From assembly GCA_000993535.1 (NCBI GenBank), contig LBWG01000009.1:45800-82654 (forward strand): a stretch of DNA of 36,855 nucleotides. Reading direction: 5' to 3'. Shown piece by piece: positions 22,173 through 32,535 of this stretch. Position numbers and translations under genes: made by a program. How positions within the stretch are numbered: position 1 is the stretch's first letter; each line of letters opens with the position of its first letter. The notes under the pieces are model-generated. The model ran no database searches. It was not told where the DNA came from and saw only the letters and a program-made list of their open reading frames with translations. The DNA comes from Candidatus Uhrbacteria bacterium GW2011_GWF2_39_13. GTDB lineage: Bacteria; Patescibacteriota; Patescibacteriia; UBA9934; GWF2-40-263.

Positions 22173-24578
22173 TTATCGTTTTTCATCAAGTTCATTCTCA
22201 CTTTTTTTCTCAATCCACCGATCATCTATTTGATTTTCCCAATTCGTTTCTTCCTCCCATTCTCTTTCATGAGATTCTTCTTGTTCTTCGTTGTATTCGT
22301 TTTCCATTTTTTCCTCATGATTTATCTGTGTATCATTGGTTTTGAATCGATCTTCTTCTTGATAGGCTTCATCGTAATCATTTTGAGCGGTTGGAACTTG
22401 TTGAGAAAGGTCGCCCCCTGGTGGCCAAGACTCAACAAGAATTTCTCTTGGTTTTGCTCCAGAACCTGGACCTACAACCCCTGCCTCTTCCATCATATCG
22501 ATCATTCGTGCGGCTCGGGCATATCCAAGTCGAAGTTTCCGTTGCAGGAAAGAAGTGGAAGCTTTTCCAGATTCAAGAACCACTTGAATCGCTTCATCCA
22601 GCATTTCATCTTGGTCACCCAGCTCATCAAAAACGGTTCCTGATTTCGTGATTTCTGTAATAGCCATGTTGTAGTTTGGACTTTCTTTTCGTCGCAGATA
22701 ACTGACAACCGCCTCGACTTCTTCTGTTGAAACAAAAGCCCCTTGAAGACGTTTAGGTTTGGATACTTCTGCAGAGGTGAAAAGCATGTCCCCTCGACCC
22801 AAAAGTTTTTCAGCTCCAGATTGATCCAAAATTGTTCGAGAATCGGTTTGAGAAGCAACGGCAAAAGCAATTCGACCTGGAATATTGGCTTTAATTAAGC
22901 CAGTAATAACGTCCACGCTAGGTCTTTGAGTTGCCAATACAAGATAAATTCCTATTGCTCGAGCCATTTGGGCAATGCGAACAATCGTTGTTTCTACTTC
23001 TCGACCGCTGATGGTCATCAAATCTGCCAGCTCATCGATGACGATTACAATTTTTGGCATGTGTTCTTCAGATTTGGCGTTATAACCATCAATATTGCGC
23101 ACACCGAATTTTGAAAGTAGATCTAATCGTCGTTCCATTTCTCGAACAGCCCACTTAAGAGCATTGACCGTATCATCAACGCTTGTGATAGGAGGGACAA
23201 GTAAATGAGGAATACCATTATAACTAGTGAGTTCAACGCGTTTTGGATCAATGAGAATCAGTTTTAAATCATCCGGTCCATTTCGGTAGAGCCAGGAGAT
23301 GATCATGGTGTTCAGACACACAGATTTTCCAGATCCTGTGGCTCCTGCCACAAGCAGGTGAGGCATTTTATCCAAAGCGATCGTGTAGGTACCTCCAGAT
23401 ACATCTTTTCCAAGAGGAATAGCCAGTGGAGATGGATGACTTCGGAATTCCTTACTTTCCATAACATCGCGCAATGTTACGATTGCCACTTTGTTATTAG
23501 GAACTTCAATTCCCACCAGAGATTGACCAGGAATGGGAGCTTCCATGCGCAATGGATGGGCTGCCAAGGCAAGGGCAAGATCATTTTGCAAGCTTACAAT
23601 ACGCGAAAGTTTGACCCCCTGGCTTGGTCGAAGAGTATATTGTGTTACTGTCGGACCAATGGACGTTTTCCCCATTTCTACATCAATGGCAAATTCTTGA
23701 AATGTTTTTTCAATAATTTCTTTATTTTTTTCAATATCTCCTGATTGAGCTTTTGAATTGGAACGTTGAAGGAGTTTAAAAGGGATGGTAATTTCTCTGT
23801 GTTCGTGTGAAACGAGTGCCGTCTCTTTTTGTTGGAGTGTCTGAACGGGTTTTGTCGTAAAGTTTTGTGGAATTTGTTCCACGGTGTCTATTTTTTTATT
23901 CTTTTTTATTTCTTCTTCTTCTTCTTCTTCGATTGTCTCCTCCAATTCAAGATTTTCTGATTCATCTTCCATTATGTAGTCCTCTTCTGTCTTTTCTTCT
24001 ATTTGTGTTTTTCGTTTTTGAAAAAGAGAACCGACTCGTCCTGTTAAATGGGTATGAATTCCTAATAGAGATTGTAATGAGGTATTAAAAATAAGAAGAA
24101 CAGAGACAAAGAGTAAGGAAGCAGCGCTTACAACAGATCCCCAATATCCTAGAAAGATATTGAATGAGGAAGCAAGGAATTGACCCAAGTATCCGCCTGC
24201 AAGACTAATATCTTGAGTAAAAGGTTGTGGTTTATTGACAAGAAAAAGATTTAAGAGAGCATTAAACGAGAGAAAGAAAAAAAAGAGTCCAAGGTAATTC
24301 CATATCGAAAGTTTACCGCGCTCTGGATAGGCAAGCGTGGCCCCAATAGTGATGAGTATAAAAGGAACAAGATATCGATCCAGACCAAAAAAAGCGGTCA
24401 GTCCTTTATTAATCCAAATACCAACACTTCCAGCAATATGGAAAAAAGAAAGAAAAATAAGAGCTGAAGCGGCAAAGATACAAATGACGTAGATCCCTTT
24501 TTTGGTTTCAGGATTTAACTTCATTTTTGGCAAAGGGATCCTTTCTTTTTTAGGGGACAGTTTCTTTTTTTGTGCCAT
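22173..24578 (-). CDS. ftsK: DNA translocase FtsK/SpoIIIE
   Basis: 801 residues. About four hydrophobic segments in the first ~170 residues anchor the protein (IYVICIFAASALIFLSFFHIAG and following). An acidic Glu-rich linker comes next (ETIEEEEEEEIKK, about 215-230). The motor carries Walker A VAGATGSGKSVCLN, Walker B IVIVIDELADLM and the conserved LATQRPSVDVITGLIKANIPGRIAF. A gamma winged helix (ASTSFLQRKLRLGYARAARMIDMMEEAGVVG) would read polar DNA motifs. It pumps DNA through the septum. Unusually, ~85 extra residues, mostly acidic (EEDRFKTNDTQ...NEYNEEQEESHEREWEEE), follow the gamma domain. The ATG at 24578 begins the Lys-rich cytoplasmic start. It is the first gene of a transcript that continues into the RodZ-like gene. 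Confidence 0.96.
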   Translation of the reverse strand: MAQKKKLSPKKERIPLPKMKLNPETKKGIYVICIFAASALIFLSFFHIAGSVGIWINKGLTAFFGLDRYLVPFILITIGATLAYPERGKLSIWNYLGLFFFFLSFNALLNLFLVNKPQPFTQDISLAGGYLGQFLASSFNIFLGYWGSVVSAASLLFVSVLLIFNTSLQSLLGIHTHLTGRVGSLFQKRKTQIEEKTEEDYIMEDESENLELEETIEEEEEEEIKKNKKIDTVEQIPQNFTTKPVQTLQQKETALVSHEHREITIPFKLLQRSNSKAQSGDIEKNKEIIEKTFQEFAIDVEMGKTSIGPTVTQYTLRPSQGVKLSRIVSLQNDLALALAAHPLRMEAPIPGQSLVGIEVPNNKVAIVTLRDVMESKEFRSHPSPLAIPLGKDVSGGTYTIALDKMPHLLVAGATGSGKSVCLNTMIISWLYRNGPDDLKLILIDPKRVELTSYNGIPHLLVPPITSVDDTVNALKWAVREMERRLDLLSKFGVRNIDGYNAKSEEHMPKIVIVIDELADLMTISGREVETTIVRIAQMARAIGIYLVLATQRPSVDVITGLIKANIPGRIAFAVASQTDSRTILDQSGAEKLLGRGDMLFTSAEVSKPKRLQGAFVSTEEVEAVVSYLRRKESPNYNMAITEITKSGTVFDELGDQDEMLDEAIQVVLESGKASTSFLQRKLRLGYARAARMIDMMEEAGVVGPGSGAKPREILVESWPPGGDLSQQVPTAQNDYDEAYQEEDRFKTNDTQINHEEKMENEYNEEQEESHEREWEEETNWENQIDDRWIEKKSENELDEKR

Positions 24579-24601
24579 AATAAATTTTATTTTAGCACAA
24601 T

Positions 24602-24629
24602 TTGATTTTTTCTTAATTATTGCTAAACT
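24602..24629 (+). promoter_or_regulatory. Weak candidate promoter into the ftsK-rpoB intergenic region
   Basis: TTGATT (24602-24607), 16-bp spacer, TAAACT (24624-24629), each 4/6 to consensus. It would start a rightward transcript near 24636, just ahead of the nested inverted repeat at 24649-24796. Confidence 0.3.
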
Positions 24630-24648
24630 TTAATAAGTCCTCTGTCTG

Positions 24649-24796
24649 AGGCTGCGGAGTTTGGTACGATGCAATCTGGTCTAAATCGCGAGCATAGGTC
24701 ACTCAATCGAGTTCGCTCGATTGAGTGACCAAAATCTCTCTCCTCATGCTCAAACGTTCTGATTAGGATTGGTTTCGTGACCTTTCTTCGCAGCCT
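24649..24796. repeat. Nested imperfect inverted repeat with perfect 15-bp core hairpin
   Basis: The core is a perfect 15-bp stem (24697-24711 with 24716-24730) closed by TTCG. Further arms nest around it: GAGCAT (24690-24695) with ATGCTC downstream, CAATC/CTAAATC with GATTAGGATTG, and AGGCTGCG (24649-24656) with CGCAGCCT (24789-24796). No T run follows on either strand, so it is not a simple terminator. It could be a structured RNA or a MITE-like insertion. No coding frame of note is present. Confidence 0.6.
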
Positions 24797-24808
24797 TAGC
24801 TAGAGAAC

Positions 24809-24836
24809 TTGACGATAATTTTTTGCGTGATATAAT
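24809..24836 (+). promoter_or_regulatory. Strong promoter upstream of rpoB
   Basis: TTGACG (24809-24814), 16-bp spacer, perfect TATAAT (24831-24836) with an extended -10 TGA just before it. The predicted start is near 24843, about 390 nt before the rpoB ATG. Confidence 0.8.
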
Positions 24837-24854
24837 CCTTCTGCAATTTTCAAA

Positions 24855-24880
24855 AAACTTATCTAAATTTAGATAAGTTT
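24855..24880. promoter_or_regulatory. Perfect 26-bp palindrome just downstream of the rpoB promoter
   Basis: The 13-base half AAACTTATCTAAA (24855-24867) is followed directly by its exact reverse complement (24868-24880). It begins about +13 from the predicted start. It could be a repressor operator on DNA or a 5' hairpin in the RNA. Confidence 0.6.
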
Positions 24881-25037
24881 AAAACCCCCCGCACCTCGTT
24901 TGTGGCAGAACGGTCAACCAGGTCAAGGGGCACATAAAGAGAAACTCCTGGTTCGTAGGCTGTGGGGCCTCGATACTGGGGTAATTCACCTATTCTCTGA
25001 TGGTGCGTACTTACCCATTATTATTCAGTAATAAATA

Positions 25038-25070
25038 GCTTTCCCCTCACCAGGGAAGCGTTTTTTGTTT
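25038..25070 (+). terminator. Intrinsic terminator/attenuator inside the rpoB leader
   Basis: GCTTTCCC (25038-25045) pairs with GGGAAGC (25053-25059) with one bulged T, then TTTTTTGTTTT. It lies 162 bp upstream of the rpoB start and downstream of the only strong promoter seen. Confidence 0.7.
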
Positions 25071-25077
25071 TCTAAAT

Positions 25078-25207
25078 AGGTATTCTTTAAAACTCGCGAT
25101 CTTTCGTTTCACGGGCGCCCGCTGACCCCACTCTCCCTATTGTGAATAGGGTTCGCGGGGCTCAGCAGCCCGTTCAACGAAATCTCATCGAGTTTTAAAG
25201 AATACCT
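25078..25207. repeat. 130-nt long nested hairpin immediately before rpoB
   Basis: A perfect 19-bp outer stem (25078-25096 with 25189-25207) is followed inward by TTTCGTT/AACGAAA, CGGGC/GCCCG, GCTGA-CCCC/GGGG-C-TCAGC and a terminal CCCTATT-GTG-AATAGGG. The whole element folds into one rod. It ends 24 bases before the rpoB ATG. It may be an RNase processing site, a regulatory structure or a MITE. No target-site duplication is evident. Confidence 0.8.
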
Positions 25208-25231
25208 TCAGAAAAATTTTCAATCCATTTT

Positions 25232-28200
25232 ATGCCTATCTACCGCCGCACACCGGTAAAGACACGAGAACGTAAAACGTTCGACAACGCTGTTCATGAT
25301 GCCATGGATGTTCCTGATCTCATCGAAGTTCAACGCAGATCCTATCGTTGGTTTTATGATGAAGGGATTAAAGAACTTTTTGATGAAGTGACCCCTATCA
25401 CCGATTTTATCGGTCGTGATTTGCAGTTGTATTTTGACGATTATTATCTTGATGAACCAAAATTTGATGAGAAAACATCCCGTGAAAAAAACGTGACTTT
25501 TGAAGCTCCTCTTCGAGTAAAAACGCGTTTGGTAAATATTCGAACAAAAGATGTAAAAGAACAGGAAATTTATTTGGGCGATTTACCAATCATGACTCCT
25601 CGAGGAACTTTTTTGATCAATGGTGTTGAACGAGTGGTTGTGTCCCAACTTGTTCGTTCCGCTGGAGCTTTTTTTACGGCAGATGTTTATCGTGGACGTC
25701 GTTATTATGGAGCCAAAATTATTCCAAATCGTGGAGCTTGGCTTGAATTTGAGACCGATCCTAAGAACGTGTTATGGGTTAAAATTGATCGTAAACGAAA
25801 AGTCGCTGTAACCGCTCTTCTTCGTGCCTTTGGTGTAACAGATGACGAATCAATTATTGAATTGTTTAAAGATATCGATATTCATCCTACCAATCATTAC
25901 ATTGAAGCGACATTGAATAAGGATATTTCCAAAACAGAAGATGAAGGATTGATTGAAGTCTATAAACGTATTCGCCCAGGAGATCGCGCTACAGCCGACA
26001 ATGCAAAGAGTCTTATCCACTCTATGTTTTTTAATTTTGACCGTTATGATCTGGGAAAAGTTGGACGTTATAAATTCAACCTGCGTTTTAATCAGGAAAT
26101 TACTGATGAACTTGTTGCAAAAGAAGAGAATCGTATTATCAGCAAAGAAGATCTTGTCATGATTATCCGCGAAATTATTCGTTTGAATATTGAACAAGGT
26201 GAACCAGATGACGTTGATCATTTAGGAAACCGACGCGTTCGAGCTGTAGGAGAGCTTATTCAAGGTCGTTTTCGTGTCGGACTCGCTCGTATGGAACGTA
26301 TTGTTCGCGATCGTATGTCTACTCGCGATATTGATACATTGACTCCAGGACGTCTTATTAACGCTCGTCCTGTGATCGGAGCCATTCGTGAGTTTTTCAT
26401 GTCCTCACAACTTTCACAGTTCATGGATCAAACCAATCCGTTGGCAGAGCTCGAACACAAACGTCGTCTTTCTGCGATGGGTCCTGGAGGTCTTTCTCGT
26501 GAACGTGCAGGTTTTGAAGTGCGTGACGTTCATCCAACTCACTATGGTCGTATTTGTCCTATTGCCACTCCTGAAGGACCAAACATTGGATTGATCGGTC
26601 ACTTAGCTTCTTATGCCATCATCAATGATTACGGATTTATTGAAACACCTTATCGCAAAGTCATAAAAGAAAAGAAAAAAGGAAAGATTCTCTCACGTGT
26701 GACCAATGAGATTGAATTTATCAATGCTTTTAAAGAAGAGCGTTCTGTGACGGTTCCGGCAACCATTCCTTTGGATAAAGACGGTTATTTCGTTGAGGAA
26801 TTTGTGGGCGGACGCAAATATGGAGAACCAAAAGTCGTTGGTCAAGAAGAAGTTGATTTCATGGACGTTTCTTCCAAACAAATCGTTTCTATTGGAACAG
26901 CCCTTATTCCATTTTTGGAACATGATGATGCCACCCGTGCGCTCATGGGTACTAACATGCAACGTCAAGCCGTTCCAACGATTAAACCTGATGCTCCTAT
27001 TTGTGGAACCGGTTCTGAAAGACGAGCAGCTCGTGATTCCGGACACGTGGTTGTAGCAGAACAAACAGGAGAAATTACCGCTGTGGAAGGTCATCACGTT
27101 GAGATTACGGATAAGGATGGAAATAAAACAGATTACGAATTGAAGAAATTTTTACGTTCCAATAATTCCACTTGTATCAATCAACGACCAGTAGTTCAGA
27201 AAAATCAAAAGGTGATTAAAGGTGATGTGATTGCCGATTCCTCGGCCGTTGATCAAGGAGAATTAGCACTGGGACAAAATTGCCTTGTCGCCTTTATGGC
27301 ATGGGATGGATATAACTACGAAGACGCGGTTATTATTTCTGAGCGAATGGTTCAAGACGATCGTTTTACGAGCGTGCATATTGAGCACTACACCATTGAC
27401 GTACGTGATACCAAATTAGGACCTGAAGTCGTTACTTCAGATATTCCAAATGTCTCTGAAGACAAATTGAAAAATTTAGATGCTGAAGGCATTATCCGTG
27501 TCGGAGCTGAAGTGAAATCTGGAGACATTTTGGTTGGAAAAATTACACCAAAAGGCGAAACAGAACTTTCAGCAGAAGAAAAACTTCTCCGAGCCATTTT
27601 CGGTGAAAAAGCGCGTGATGTGCGTGATTCTTCTTTATATCTTGAACACGGAGAACACGGAAAAGTGGTTGCTGTTACTATTTTTTCTCGAGAAGAAGGC
27701 GATAAGCTTTCTCCGGGAGTGATTAAATCTATCCAAGTCACGATTGCTGATTTGCGTAAAGTTCAGGTAGGAGACAAGGTGGCCGGAAGACACGGAAACA
27801 AGGGTGTTATTTCTCGTGTGGTGCCAGTGGCTGATATGCCTTTCATGTCCGATGGAACTCCAGTGGACGTGATTTTGACTCCACTTGGAGTTGTTTCTCG
27901 TATGAACTTGGGACAGATTTTGGAAGTTCACCTTGGACTCGCTGCTAATGCTCTTGGGTATAACGTGAATACTCCGGTACTCAACGGAGTTCCTGAAAAA
28001 TCGATCCACGATGAACTTGAACGGGCAGGATTCCCTCGCAGCGGACAGCTTACTTTGTTTGATGGTCGCTCTGGTGACGCGTTTGAAAACCCTGTGACTG
28101 TTGGATATATGTACATCTTGAAACTTTCTCACATGGTTGAAGACAAGATGCATCAACGCTCTATCGGTCCATACTCTCTTATTACGCAGCAGCCGCTTGG

Positions 28201-28501
28201 AGGAAAAGCTCAGTTTGGTGGTCAGCGATTTGGAGAAATGGAAGTGTGGGCATTGGAAGCCTATGGAGCAGCCCACATGCTTCAAGAAATTTTAACCATC
28301 AAATCAGACGATGTCCCAGGTCGTTCAAAGGCTTACGAGGCTATTATCAAAGGTGAGCCCATTAAAAAAGTAAACATTCCAGAATCCTTTAACGTGTTGG
28401 TCAGAGAGTTGAAAGGATTGTGTATGGATGTAGAACTTCTTAAAGACGGGGAGAAGGTCGACCTTCCTGGAGAGAAAAAAACAGTGAGTAGCAAAGCCTA
28501 A
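25232..28501 (+). CDS. rpoB: DNA-directed RNA polymerase subunit beta
   Basis: 1089 residues, shorter than E. coli (1342) because lineage-specific insertions are absent. Recognised by the Rif-region [54 protein letters not shown], by [10 protein letters not shown], by [15 protein letters not shown], by the [19 protein letters not shown] active-site region, and by the C-terminal [32 protein letters not shown]. The main rifampicin contacts (Q513, D516, H526, R529, S531 in E. coli numbering) are all present. The near-universal CPIETPEGPN reads [10 protein letters not shown] here (Ala445). It forms the catalytic core with rpoC, which starts 11 bases downstream. No Shine-Dalgarno precedes the ATG; the leader holds a long hairpin and an attenuator-like terminator. 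Confidence 0.98.
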
Positions 28502-28512
28502 CGTTATCAATT

Positions 28513-31500
28513 ATGTTTAAACAACAAGAATCTCTTAGATCCACTGATTTCGATTCCATTCGTCTTCGTCTTGCCAGTCCAGAGACCATCCGTTCTTGGT
28601 CCCATGGGGAGATCACCAAACCAGAAACCATCAATTACCGTACACAAAAACCAGAAAAACAAGGTTTGTTTGCGGAAGAAATTTTTGGACCCTCAAAAGA
28701 TTGGGAGTGTTATTGTGGAAAGTATAAAAAGATTCGTTATAAAGGGATTGTTTGTGACAAGTGTGGTGTTGAGGTAACCCATTCCGTTGTTCGACGTGAA
28801 CGCATGGGGCATATTGAACTTGCCGCTCCTATTACACACATTTGGTTTTTGCGCGGTGTTCCTTCAAAAATTGGAACGATTCTCGATGTTTCTATTCAGA
28901 ACTTAGAAAAAATTATTTATTTTGCTAGCTTTTTAGTCACAGATGTTAATGAAGCAGCAAAAGAGGTAACTACTGAACAGGTAAAAACAGAACGAAAGAG
29001 CAAAGAGAAAATGATTGAGGGAGAATTTAAACGTGATGTCGGACGTCTGGAACAGAAGTTTGGAACAGATGCCGCTTCCATCAAAAAAGAAACAAAACGT
29101 CTTGAGGAAATCCGAGACACAAAATTGGAAGAACTTGAAGAGGATTTTGAAACCGTGATGCAAGACCTTAAGGATATGAAGGTCATGTCTATTATTTCAG
29201 AACAGACTTACCATGAATGGTCCTTGAAATACGGACATGTTTTTGAGGCAAACATTGGAGCCGAAGCGGTTAAGGATATGCTTGGGCGTATCAATGTTGG
29301 AGAGACCATGAACCTTTTGGAAGAGGAACTGAAAACAGCTACAAAAACCAAACGTAATAGACTGCTGCGTCGAATCAAGTTATTAAAGTCGTTTTATATC
29401 AATAAACTCAAACCTGAGTGGATGGTATTAAACGTGTTGCCAGTTATTCCTCCAGATCTTCGTCCGATGGTTCCGTTGGATGGAGGACGTTTTGCGACGT
29501 CAGATCTCAATGATCTCTATAGACGAGTTATTAATCGCAATAATCGTTTGAGGCGTCTGTACGATCTTCATGCTCCTGAGGTCATTTCTCGAAACGAGAA
29601 ACGCATGTTGCAAGAGGCGGTTGACGCTCTTATTGATAACTCGGCTCGACATAGCAAAACCGTGATTGCTGCCACAGGAAAGAAACGTCAATTGAAATCA
29701 TTGGCTGACCAGTTGAAAGGAAAGCAGGGACGATTCCGTCAGAATTTGTTGGGTAAGCGTATCGATTATTCAGGACGATCTGTCATTGTGGTTGGACCAA
29801 ATCTACGACTTGACCAATGTGGTATTCCAAAAAAAATGGCTTTGGAACTGTTCAAACCGTTCGTTATTTCTAAACTTATTGAACGCGAATACGTTCACAA
29901 CATTCGTTCTGCCAATCGTTTTATTGAAAGCGATCGACCAGAAACATGGGATATTTTAGAGGAAGTCACCAGTGATGCGTTTGTTCTTTTGAATCGTGCT
30001 CCAACACTTCATCGATTGGGTATTCAAGCATTCCGACCTATCTTGATTGAAGGAAAAGCGATCAAGATTCATCCACTTGTGTGTGACGCCTATAATGCTG
30101 ATTTTGATGGAGACCAGATGGCCGTACACGTTCCTCTTACAGAAGAAGCTCGCGCAGAGGCACGCGAAATCATGCTTTCAACCAAAAACCTTTTGAAGCC
30201 GGCATTTGGTGGTCCAGTGGCTACACCTGGAAAAGATATTGCTTGGGGTATCTTCTTTTTGACTATGGAAGTTACAGACATGCCAGAATCCAAAGAAGGA
30301 CTCCCTATCTTTTCCAATGAAACAGATGCTTTGTATGCGTCTCAAATTGGAAAGATCGCTTTGCGTGATTGGATCGTTGTGCGGCTCTCAACACAAGAAA
30401 TTATCATCACGACTCCTGGGCGTATCTTGGTTAATCAACAATTTCCACAGGAGATTCCGTTTAAAAATCAGGTGATGGGAAAGAAGGAACTGGCAACGAT
30501 TGTGAAATATTATCTTGAGCTTCATGGCTCTGAGATGACCGCTTCCTTTCTTGATCGATTAAAAGAGATCGGATTTAAATACTCCACGCGAGCAGGATAT
30601 TCTTGGGGTATGTCAAACCTTCCAGATATAAAAGAAAAAGAAGCGTTGATTACCGAAGGAGATACGCGCGTACGAGAAATTGAAGATTACTTTTCTCAAG
30701 GACTGTTAACGGCTTCTGAACGTCATTCATCCATCGTAAAGACATGGAACGAAATCAAAGACCGTATTGCTGTTGAGGCAAAGAAAGCTCTCCCAAAGAA
30801 TAACCCTGCATACACCATGATTGAATCTGGGGCCCGCGGATCTTGGGGACAGATGACTCAGATGGTAGGTATGAAAGGACTTGTAGCAAACCCTTCCGGA
30901 GACATTATTGAGTTGCCGGTGAAATCTTCTTTTAAAGAAGGATATGACGTGTTGGAGTTCTTTATTTCTTCTCACGGTGTGCGCAAAGGATTGACCGATA
31001 CCGCTTTGCGTACGGCAAACGCCGGATATCTGACCAGACGTCTGGTGGACGTAGCACAAGACGTGATTGTCCGTCAGGAAGATTGTGGTGACGATACAGG
31101 AGTCGTATTGACTCATGAAGAATCAGAAGAAATTGGAGAACCATTAATCATTCGTATTCTTGGACGTGTAGCCCTTTCAGAGATCAAAAAACCAGGAGGA
31201 CGCAAAGCGATTGTGGAGCCAGGTCAACTGATTACTGAATCTCATGTGCGTGAAATTGAAGCAACAGGAAAAGAATTATCTGAGGCTCATGTGCGTTCCG
31301 TGATGACCTGCAAGCTTCGTCGTGGTGTGTGTCAGAAATGTTATGGATATGATCTTGCCTACAACAAACTCGTGAAAATGGGAACGAGTGTGGGAATTAT
31401 GGCTGCTCAATCTATCGGAGAACCTGGTACCCAGCTCACTATGCGTACCTTCCATACAGGAGGTGTGGCTGGAAAAGATATCACGCAAGGGCTTCCTCGT

Positions 31501-32535
31501 GTGGAAGAATTGTTTGAGGCTCGAAATCCAAAACAGAAAGCCATCATGTCAGAAGTTTCAGGAAAAGCTTCCCTTGAATCTGCTCAGCGCGAGATTGTTC
31601 AGGCAGGAACAGGCAAGCAGATTCTGGATATGCGTCCAGGACAAAAGACCGTTAAAATTACGTATCAGGGAATTGAGGAAGATACACAGCTGTACGGAAA
31701 ATCAGGTGAACTACTTGTCAAAGAAGGAGATAAGGTTAAAGAAGGACAAGTTATCGCTCGCAAATCTACCGGTAAAGAAATTTTGGCTCCTGGAACGGGA
31801 ATTATTGCTATAAAAAAAGAATCAACTGTTACGGTGTTGTATGAGGCGACCAAAGTTCGTGAGTACATCATTCCACCTGGATTTACCCTTTATGTGAAGG
31901 AAGGCGATGAAGTCCAAGCGGGCGACGCTCTTACAGATGGACACCTTGATTTGCAAGTCCTTTTTAAGTACAAGGGGCAGGATGCCGTTCAAAAGTATCT
32001 CTCAAAAGAAATCCAGTTTATTTATTCCAGCCAAGGACAGAAACTCAACAACAAACACATCGAGATTATCATCCGTCAGATGTTCTCTCGTATCCGCGTG
32101 GTGGATCCAGGAGACACAGACCTCTTGCCTGGTGAGATTATTGAGAAAGCCACGTTTGAGGATGCAAATGATTTTGTTGAAAAAACACAAAAATCAGCTA
32201 CCTCTAAATCCTTGTTCTTGGGAATTACAAAAATTTCTCTTTCAACAGATTCCTGGCTTTCAAGTGCGTCCTTCCAAGAAACAGCTCGAGTTCTTATTAA
32301 CGCAGCTGTGACAGGAAAAGTGGATCGTCTTGAAGGACTTAAAGAGAATGTCATTATTGGGCGTCTTATTCCAGCGGGAACCGGTTTTGAGGATATGCAG
32401 TACGAACTCATTGGAGATGTGACTCAACACCATTTGCAACATGCAACAACCAAGAAGATTGCTCAGGAAATTGACGAAACATTTGCGAATAACACAACAG
32501 TTATTGAAGGATCAGAATCTGAGCGTGAACTTTAA
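28513..32535 (+). CDS. rpoC: DNA-directed RNA polymerase subunit beta'
   Basis: 1340 residues. N-terminal zinc-binding [21 protein letters not shown] charged coiled-coil insertion (~150-230) is rich in Lys/Glu. [37 protein letters not shown] and the catalytic [12 protein letters not shown] follow, with the magnesium-binding aspartates at D530, D532 and D534. The trigger-loop/bridge-helix region includes [34 protein letters not shown] second zinc site comprises EDCGDD and [31 protein letters not shown] leads into the C-terminal region. It completes the RNA polymerase active site with rpoB, and follows it by 11 bases without a Shine-Dalgarno. A shared bidirectional terminator lies 20 bases downstream. 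Confidence 0.98.

Follow-up and report, generated by a model that had tools for sequence, protein, structure and literature searches.

Organization of the region upstream of rpoB

The window, a stretch of 36,855 nucleotides from Candidatus Uhrbacteria bacterium GW2011_GWF2_39_13, comes from a 1.16-Mb draft genome that is 68.6% complete, and carries the gene for the RNA polymerase beta subunit, rpoB, followed by rpoC, with ftsK running divergently upstream. The intergenic region between ftsK and rpoB (24579-25231) contains three structured elements, A (24635-24810), B (about 24842-25072, the rpoB leader) and C (25078-25207). These elements are distinct things: C is a dispersed repeat, A has a distribution of its own, and B is tied to rpoB. 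The features considered here are as follows:

Leftward from 24578: ftsK, divergent, upstream of the leader
24809-24836, + strand: promoter with -35 TTGACG, 16-nt spacer and extended -10 TG(A)TATAAT (TG at -15/-14), the best site in 10 kb
24842-25070, + strand: leader RNA, from the inferred transcription start to the inferred termination point, as placed by the promoter and terminator positions
24855-24880, + strand: P1 hairpin, a perfect 26-nt palindrome in the window species (inverted repeat I3)
24887-24930, + strand: P2 hairpin, helix of 24887-24895 with 24921-24930 closing the conserved loop, assigned by covariation
24896-24920, + strand: conserved 25-nt P2 loop UCGUUUGUGGCAGAACGGUCAACCA, with invariant columns in alignments A1 and A5
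24933-25002, + strand: P3 stem, 24938-24943 with 24993-24998 plus CAU 24933-24935 with the leader AUG 25000-25002, assigned by covariation (helices 3 and 4)
25000-25038, + strand: leader ORF of 12 codons, ATG GTG CGT ACT TAC CCA TTA TTA TTC AGT AAT AAA TAG (MVRTYPLLFSNK)
25038-25072, + strand: intrinsic terminator T, stem GCTTTCC / GGGAAGC at 25038-25059 and tail GTTTTTTGTTTT; the stem covaries (helix 5)
25232-28501, + strand: rpoB, RNA polymerase beta subunit (Pfam RNA_pol_Rpb2 domains), the proposed regulated gene
28513-32535, + strand: rpoC, next after rpoB

A reading of this DNA made earlier from its letters alone (the sequence-only reading) had described a strong TTGACG-16-TATAAT promoter with an extended -10 before rpoB, a terminator with a T-rich tail 162 nt before the gene, and a structured leader between the two, and all three descriptions held. 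Of the 19 sigma-70-like sites scored in the 10 kb around it, the leader promoter has 11 of 12 matches and the others have 9 each, while the interval from the terminator to rpoB (25071-25231) contains none of the sites scored. The end of the -10 element lies 395 nt from the rpoB ATG (25232). The 228-nt stretch has a predicted minimum free energy (MFE) of -66.8 kcal/mol, compared with -53.2 +/- 4.2 kcal/mol for shuffled sequences (z -3.3), and its stems covary in relatives, as detailed below.

A promoter of the same type, TTGAC[G]-17-TGnTAnnnT, precedes P2 by 4-80 nt in 41 of 43 relatives (the spacer being 16 nt in the window), and in some genera transcription must begin at or beside P2, which makes P1 dispensable. 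The terminator tail, TTTTTTGTT, is nearly invariant across the aligned relatives. In at least 12 of the 43, no more than about 12 nt separate its end from the rpoB start, leaving no space in these species for a promoter after the terminator.

Element C, situated between the terminator and rpoB, is a 130-nt hairpin with 19-bp perfect ends, AGGTATTCTTTAAAACTCG / CGAGTTTTAAAGAATACCT. The source genome has at least five other copies, many genomes of the family also carry it more than once, and C is classed by its sequence as a REP- or MITE-like dispersed repeat. Since the 162-nt gap before rpoB consists mostly of this repeat copy (25078-25207), and since the terminator tail lies close to rpoB in the relatives mentioned above, the gap is judged from these sequences not to be ancestral.

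Distribution of the leader and its linkage to rpoB

Relatives of the leader were gathered by DNA search and a conserved-core pattern, which yielded 24 distinct copies, every one of them located before rpoB. When the pattern was searched in a collection of 84,980 species, 27 matches were obtained; the named relatives among them are mostly Candidatus Uhrbacteria, and four matches, in unrelated organisms and with no rpoB match alongside, appear to be due to chance. The 24 copies were then used to build a covariance model, R1, of which rpoB was no part. R1 found the element in 41 of the 43 genomes of family f1 (G000-G042) and in both genomes of the sister family f2, spanning 21 genera, and the two genomes that gave no match are incomplete (56% and 79%). 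All 19 new matches, with E-values per genome from 1.3e-9 (best) to 0.018 (weakest), are immediately upstream of rpoB and share its strand, and because the model contains no rpoB sequence, their position is an independent confirmation of the linkage. The 43 aligned copies, including these 19 that were absent from model building, all adjoin rpoB on its upstream side.

Beyond f1 and f2, the sole R1 match in 381 genomes of the class was in G334 (E 6.8e-4), on a contig different from that of the G334 rpoB, and was taken as chance. The rpoB loci of 58 other genomes gave one weak match, L152 of family f3, positioned exactly upstream of rpoB (E 0.013 with R1 and 0.09 with R2). The element marks rpoB in two families of uncultured bacteria.

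Comparison with known RNAs and with element A

The sequence-only reading had raised the possibility of a new structured RNA, and in agreement with this Rfam returned nothing credible, either at the gathering threshold in the window or at E-values of up to 10 in 24560-25240; the best sub-threshold match was symR, with 22.9 bits against a cut-off of 61. RNase P RNA and tmRNA were found in 12 of 12 f1 genomes examined, and in G000 they are located on contigs C16 and C1, respectively, outside the window, so that neither identity applies to B. With these two RNAs elsewhere and B tied to rpoB, a hidden housekeeping RNA was rejected as well. By contrast, the Rfam models for SRP RNA (RF00169 small, RF01854 large) and 6S RNA (RF00013) detected nothing in 39-43 genomes of f1 (all 43 in the case of 6S RNA, which also gave no match in the region), and in this family these RNAs are either very divergent or absent.

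Element A is a 176-nt rod-like hairpin RNA (MFE -83.7 kcal/mol) with an unpaired CU-rich bulge, AAAAUCUCUCUCCUC. Within f1 it may adjoin the B promoter or stand as far as 1.4 kb upstream of B. A 15-mer of A is present as a single copy in 39 of the 381 class genomes, distributed over many families, with no occurrence of the reversed control, and in some genomes (e.g. L195) it lies within a long terminator-like hairpin. Both sides have changed in 16 of 51 predicted pairs, and no Rfam family matches. Element A has the appearance of a new stand-alone small RNA found across the class, and it might be one of the SRP and 6S RNAs.

For B itself, the sequence-only reading had offered as an alternative an independent small RNA, with rpoB being read by readthrough. 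Such an RNA, 6S-like or some other regulator, would end at the terminator and rpoB would be transcribed by leakage. A promoter and terminator of its own would give such an RNA defined 5' and 3' ends, and the failure of Rfam to find 6S or SRP RNA in the family means that some RNA genes lack a locus. However, B is never found away from rpoB, it has a leader ORF inside it, and its terminator tail abuts the rpoB start in many species; element A, whose distance to B varies and which also occurs in families lacking B, makes a much stronger stand-alone candidate. The alternative therefore fits poorly with the rpoB linkage, and we give leakage past an independent RNA very little credence. While a stand-alone small RNA is unlikely, the terminated leader may well be abundant.

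Conserved secondary structure of the leader

In relatives, P1 usually has the form UUUnGCU(n6)AGCnAAA followed by CUUGACA, is missing where the promoter abuts P2, and may act as DNA instead of RNA. P2 presents the conserved loop, for which the consensus is UCGUnUnnnGCnGnAnnGUCnACC. P3 encloses an optional helix, P4, and has an alternative pairing of GCAC (24930-24933) with GUGC (25003-25006); the leader start codon is paired or stands at the helix junction.

Other repeated blocks occur nearby. Between element A and the B promoter (loci L031-L045), many relatives have a DnaA-box-like TGTGGATAA, repeated TTTAGCTAAATTTAGCAAAA and (C)TTGACA blocks, and the palindrome with TTGACA is found in two places in relatives, ahead of the promoter and shortly after the start site. 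These palindrome and TTGACA blocks are a possible operator or second promoter.

Covariation of the helices in a model-fitted alignment of 43 sequences was 0.357, compared with 0.163 for shuffled alignments (0/500) and at most 0.142 when the pairing was slid; with 36 sequences the value was 0.375, against 0.173 shuffled. Because model-fitted alignments lean towards the structure, P2 was retested in a gapless alignment, A5, of 13 held-out sequences that had played no role in proposing it, giving 0.429 versus 0.180 shuffled (0/500) and at most 0.162 slid. The plain MAFFT alignment of the first 24 sequences, A1, showed weaker covariation, a one-column slide scoring equally high, and the helix claims consequently rest on the structure-fitted alignments A3 and A4 together with the held-out A5, which was not structure-fitted. 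P2, P3 and T covary, in keeping with a conserved aptamer-like fold. The sequence-only reading had made its proposal depend on what relatives would show upstream of rpoB, and both covariation and conservation are present there. The comparison indicates that B is a real and new structured leader RNA, conserved among relatives and absent from Rfam.

A short reading frame ends at the terminator

The sequence-only reading saw no evident gene in the leader, having missed the 12-codon ORF at 25000-25038, which runs up to the terminator so closely that its stop codon touches the stem. All 43 sequences contain a frame, of 8-15 codons in most and 26-29 in four, whose end lies -2 to +7 nt from the 5' arm of the terminator; its distance to the T tract is 19-34 nt. 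An ATG-only test involving no choice by eye identified such frames, six codons or longer, in 18 of 21 genera, where dinucleotide shuffles predicted 2.2 (P about 1e-16). The five sequences (of 43) without an ATG-started ORF that passes the test, which make up all or part of several genera, have ATC, CTG or GTG instead.

The leader peptides are poorly conserved overall, those of the related pair L115 and L120 being visibly homologous (MLAKINITAITIHLLDVMELSCLTNKKN / MLAKRILATITLQILEVMAPTCLINKKNN). Substitutions at the three codon positions numbered 10/8/15 in eight pairs, and with so weak an excess at the third position a conserved coding peptide was rejected: what is conserved is the position of the ORF, not its peptide. 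For this reason, we take the ORF to serve as a track that brings ribosomes to a fixed end point, rather than to encode a functional peptide. An amino-acid attenuator of the trp/his type was also rejected, as the peptides of relatives have no common run of codons for one amino acid (overall composition Asn 12%, Ser 10%, Leu 10%).

Pairing of the P2 loop with the end of the reading frame

The P2 loop of many genera shows complementarity to the last codons of the leader ORF, in a segment whose end lies about 8-14 nt ahead of the terminator stem. This pseudoknot was seen in roughly 14 of the 21 genera, with pairings such as GUUUGUGGCAG with CUGCCACAAAC, UCGUUUGCGG with UCGCAAACGA, GUUUGC(U)GCUG with CAGCGCAAAC, and UGGACGG with CCGUCCA. 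A pseudoknot common to all species was rejected, as the loop-ORF pairing is absent from the genus of the window and from several others, and the overall test of own against swapped partners reached only P 0.01.

We also looked for an upstream partner that would compete for the terminator 5' arm. Pairing scored 11.7 for a leader's own partner and 11.9 for partners swapped between genera, so that no conserved partner, and no mutually exclusive terminator and antiterminator pairings of the riboswitch kind, were found. A base-paired antiterminator was rejected on this basis, which suggests that the terminator would be relieved by something else. Of the earlier proposal, the new structured attenuator RNA was supported, given the lack of an Rfam match, the covariation and the strict link to rpoB, whereas riboswitch-like antitermination was not, at least in its usual base-pair-switching form.

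These results bear on a ligand- or protein-binding leader, that is, a riboswitch or an autoregulatory leader bound, for example, by RNA polymerase or a ribosomal protein, in which the P2 loop and pseudoknot would be a sensor controlling the terminator directly and the ORF would be secondary. An invariant 25-nt loop and a covarying pseudoknot at a fixed place before a terminator are aptamer-like, and such a position is typical of riboswitches. On the other hand, the terminator stem has no conserved alternative partner, the 3' strand of the pseudoknot does not overlap that stem, the genus of the window lacks the loop-ORF pairing altogether, and an ORF ending at the terminator in every genus would be left unexplained. 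We consider direct control by a bound ligand or protein unlikely, though with a real chance of being right.

A probable ribosome-mediated attenuator of rpoB-rpoC

We propose that the rpoB-rpoC transcript begins with this stretch as its structured 5' leader, which probably acts as a ribosome-mediated transcription attenuator, an interpretation held with some confidence and well short of certainty. The anatomy of an attenuator is well supported, and attenuation as the mechanism is likely. The sequence features comprise a promoter, a leader ORF and an intrinsic terminator before rpoB, and in the comparison of relatives the promoter, the fold, the end point of the ORF, the terminator and the rpoB target are all conserved. 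The mechanism is inferred from the spacing, the lack of a conserved antiterminator pairing, and published measurements in E. coli. In that organism, a terminator of about 90% efficiency dropped below 10% when it stood 5 bp downstream of the stop codon in a translated gene; the repression was lost when translation was uncoupled, and also when the spacing exceeded about 27 nt (PMC4824070). With the threshold from that study, the leader stop codon lies within about 27 nt of the first base of the hairpin, close enough for occlusion by a ribosome, in 43 of 43 sequences. The pyrBI operon is a natural case of leader translation relieving a terminator (PMC5021804).

By default, the leader would fold with its start codon held in P3, the terminator would form, and transcription would end before rpoB. 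A ribosome that reached the leader stop codon while the polymerase was near the U tract would cover the terminator 5' arm; with the arm covered, no hairpin would form, the polymerase would continue into rpoB-rpoC, and RNA polymerase output would track translation capacity. Because P3 contains the start codon and, in most genera, the P2 loop pairs with the ORF end, folding and leader translation would be mutually exclusive, and this exclusion is a point where a signal could act. The conserved loop, paired with the ORF end in most genera, would gate leader translation or slow the polymerase for the ribosome to catch up. Terminators in the first 100 bp of coding sequence in E. coli usually escape ribosomes unless the polymerase pauses (PMC4824070), and the mechanism needs such a pause in the structured leader, which we assume.

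Several features of the sequences appear to weigh against a ribosome attenuator, namely the weakly conserved peptide, the five of 43 sequences without an ATG-started ORF, the location of the start codon in a stem and the patchy pseudoknot. The put RNAs of phage HK022 and the EAR element are RNAs that act on the polymerase transcribing them. If B acted in this way, its own polymerase would ignore the terminator, amounting to autogenous control of RNA polymerase; the regulated gene is indeed RNA polymerase itself, and the conserved loop stands near the 5' end of the RNA. The region, however, matches no described antiterminator RNA in Rfam, the leader ORF would have no explanation, and we regard this mode of action as quite improbable. 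A fixed, unregulated attenuator would produce a constant ratio of short to long transcripts, with the ORF only maintaining that ratio. It would suit a leader with no ligand and with no regulatory codons in its peptides, and regulation of the E. coli rpoBC attenuator is itself only partly understood (PMC4670729), but the conserved loop, the pseudoknot and the start-codon stem exceed the needs of a fixed terminator, and the chance of this being the whole account seems very small.

rpoB leaders in other families of the class

In family f4, which belongs to the same order, the rpoB leader carries a different motif, roughly AGGUGAnnCCCCCAACACC, that comes after a GCUAA...UUAGC block and is then followed by a terminator close to rpoB (loci L136, L139, L140, L143 and L145). 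Across other families of the class, 26 of 58 loci have a terminator within 60 nt of a candidate rpoB start, and in some of them short ORFs end near the terminator, including MPTPGRTVTNQKKS (L138), MLNALSAFVAKRIFSVAAPILGK (L148) and MHVERALSASTHN (L135). A strict test for such leader ORFs across the class counted 7 versus 4.8 expected (P 0.20), and a looser version gave P 0.013-0.05. As the enrichment is weak, with P ranging from 0.01 to 0.20 by the definition used, these sequences give only a hint of a class-wide leader-ORF mechanism.

Relation to known attenuators and rpoB leaders

The pyrL frame of the pyrBI leader runs through its terminator, and UTP-sensitive pausing sets the response, whereas in Uhrbacteria the frame stops at the terminator, RNA polymerase is the target, and a structured loop is conserved in the leader. 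In E. coli, a ribosome on this short leader ORF blocks folding of the pyrBI intrinsic terminator (PMC5021804, PMC4824070), and prevention of terminator folding by a ribosome on a short leader ORF is what we propose here as well. The vmlR (PMC9226507) and topAI (PMC12121999) leaders are antibiotic- or stress-sensing attenuators with upstream ORFs that respond to stalled ribosomes. They resemble B as proposed here in that a short upstream ORF reports the state of the ribosome to the downstream gene, and differ in that no conserved stalling peptide was seen in the Uhrbacteria leader ORFs.

Among elements associated with rpoB, the E. coli rplL-rpoBC attenuator is a terminator before rpoB that lowers rpoBC transcription relative to that upstream (PMC4670729; Barry et al. 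1980, as cited in PMC1242208). A terminator ahead of rpoB, and probably its function, are shared with B; the E. coli terminator, however, lies within an operon after rplL, downstream of the ribosomal protein genes rplKAJL, while the Uhrbacteria leader has its own promoter, a structured leader with a short ORF, and a divergent ftsK upstream. In marine cyanobacteria, a conserved element before rpoBC (cluster 245), similar to B in that position, was equated with the E. coli attenuator and left uncharacterised (PMC1242208). The Lacto-rpoB motif (RF01709) of Lactobacillales, a candidate structured RNA that takes its name from rpoB and is catalogued as cis-regulatory (Weinberg et al. 2010, PMC2864571), is likewise associated with rpoB but belongs to an unrelated bacterial group, and neither its sequence nor its structure was matched at the gathering threshold in the window or up to E = 10 in 24560-25240. 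In the open literature, with subscription papers outside the search, we found no description of an rpoB leader RNA or of any structured RNA in Uhrbacteria. Attenuation before rpoB was thus already known, and the Uhrbacteria leader RNA itself is undescribed in that literature.

Implications for the control of RNA polymerase synthesis

Dosage control of core RNA polymerase in bacteria is poorly understood, even in E. coli with its rpoBC attenuator known since 1980. The element described here supplies an RNA family outside Rfam, together with a structured loop, and it represents a specific conserved design in which transcription of rpoB-rpoC would hang on a ribosome completing an ORF of 8-29 codons. 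A bolder suggestion, which we make tentatively and rate below even chances, is that B may stand for a new class of regulatory leader, in which a pseudoknotted and possibly ligand- or protein-binding loop decides whether the leader ORF is translated, with RNA polymerase synthesis set by translation capacity in an ultrasmall CPR lineage and possibly more widely. If the proposed design is right, the supply of RNA polymerase in these bacteria would be tied to the activity of their ribosomes.
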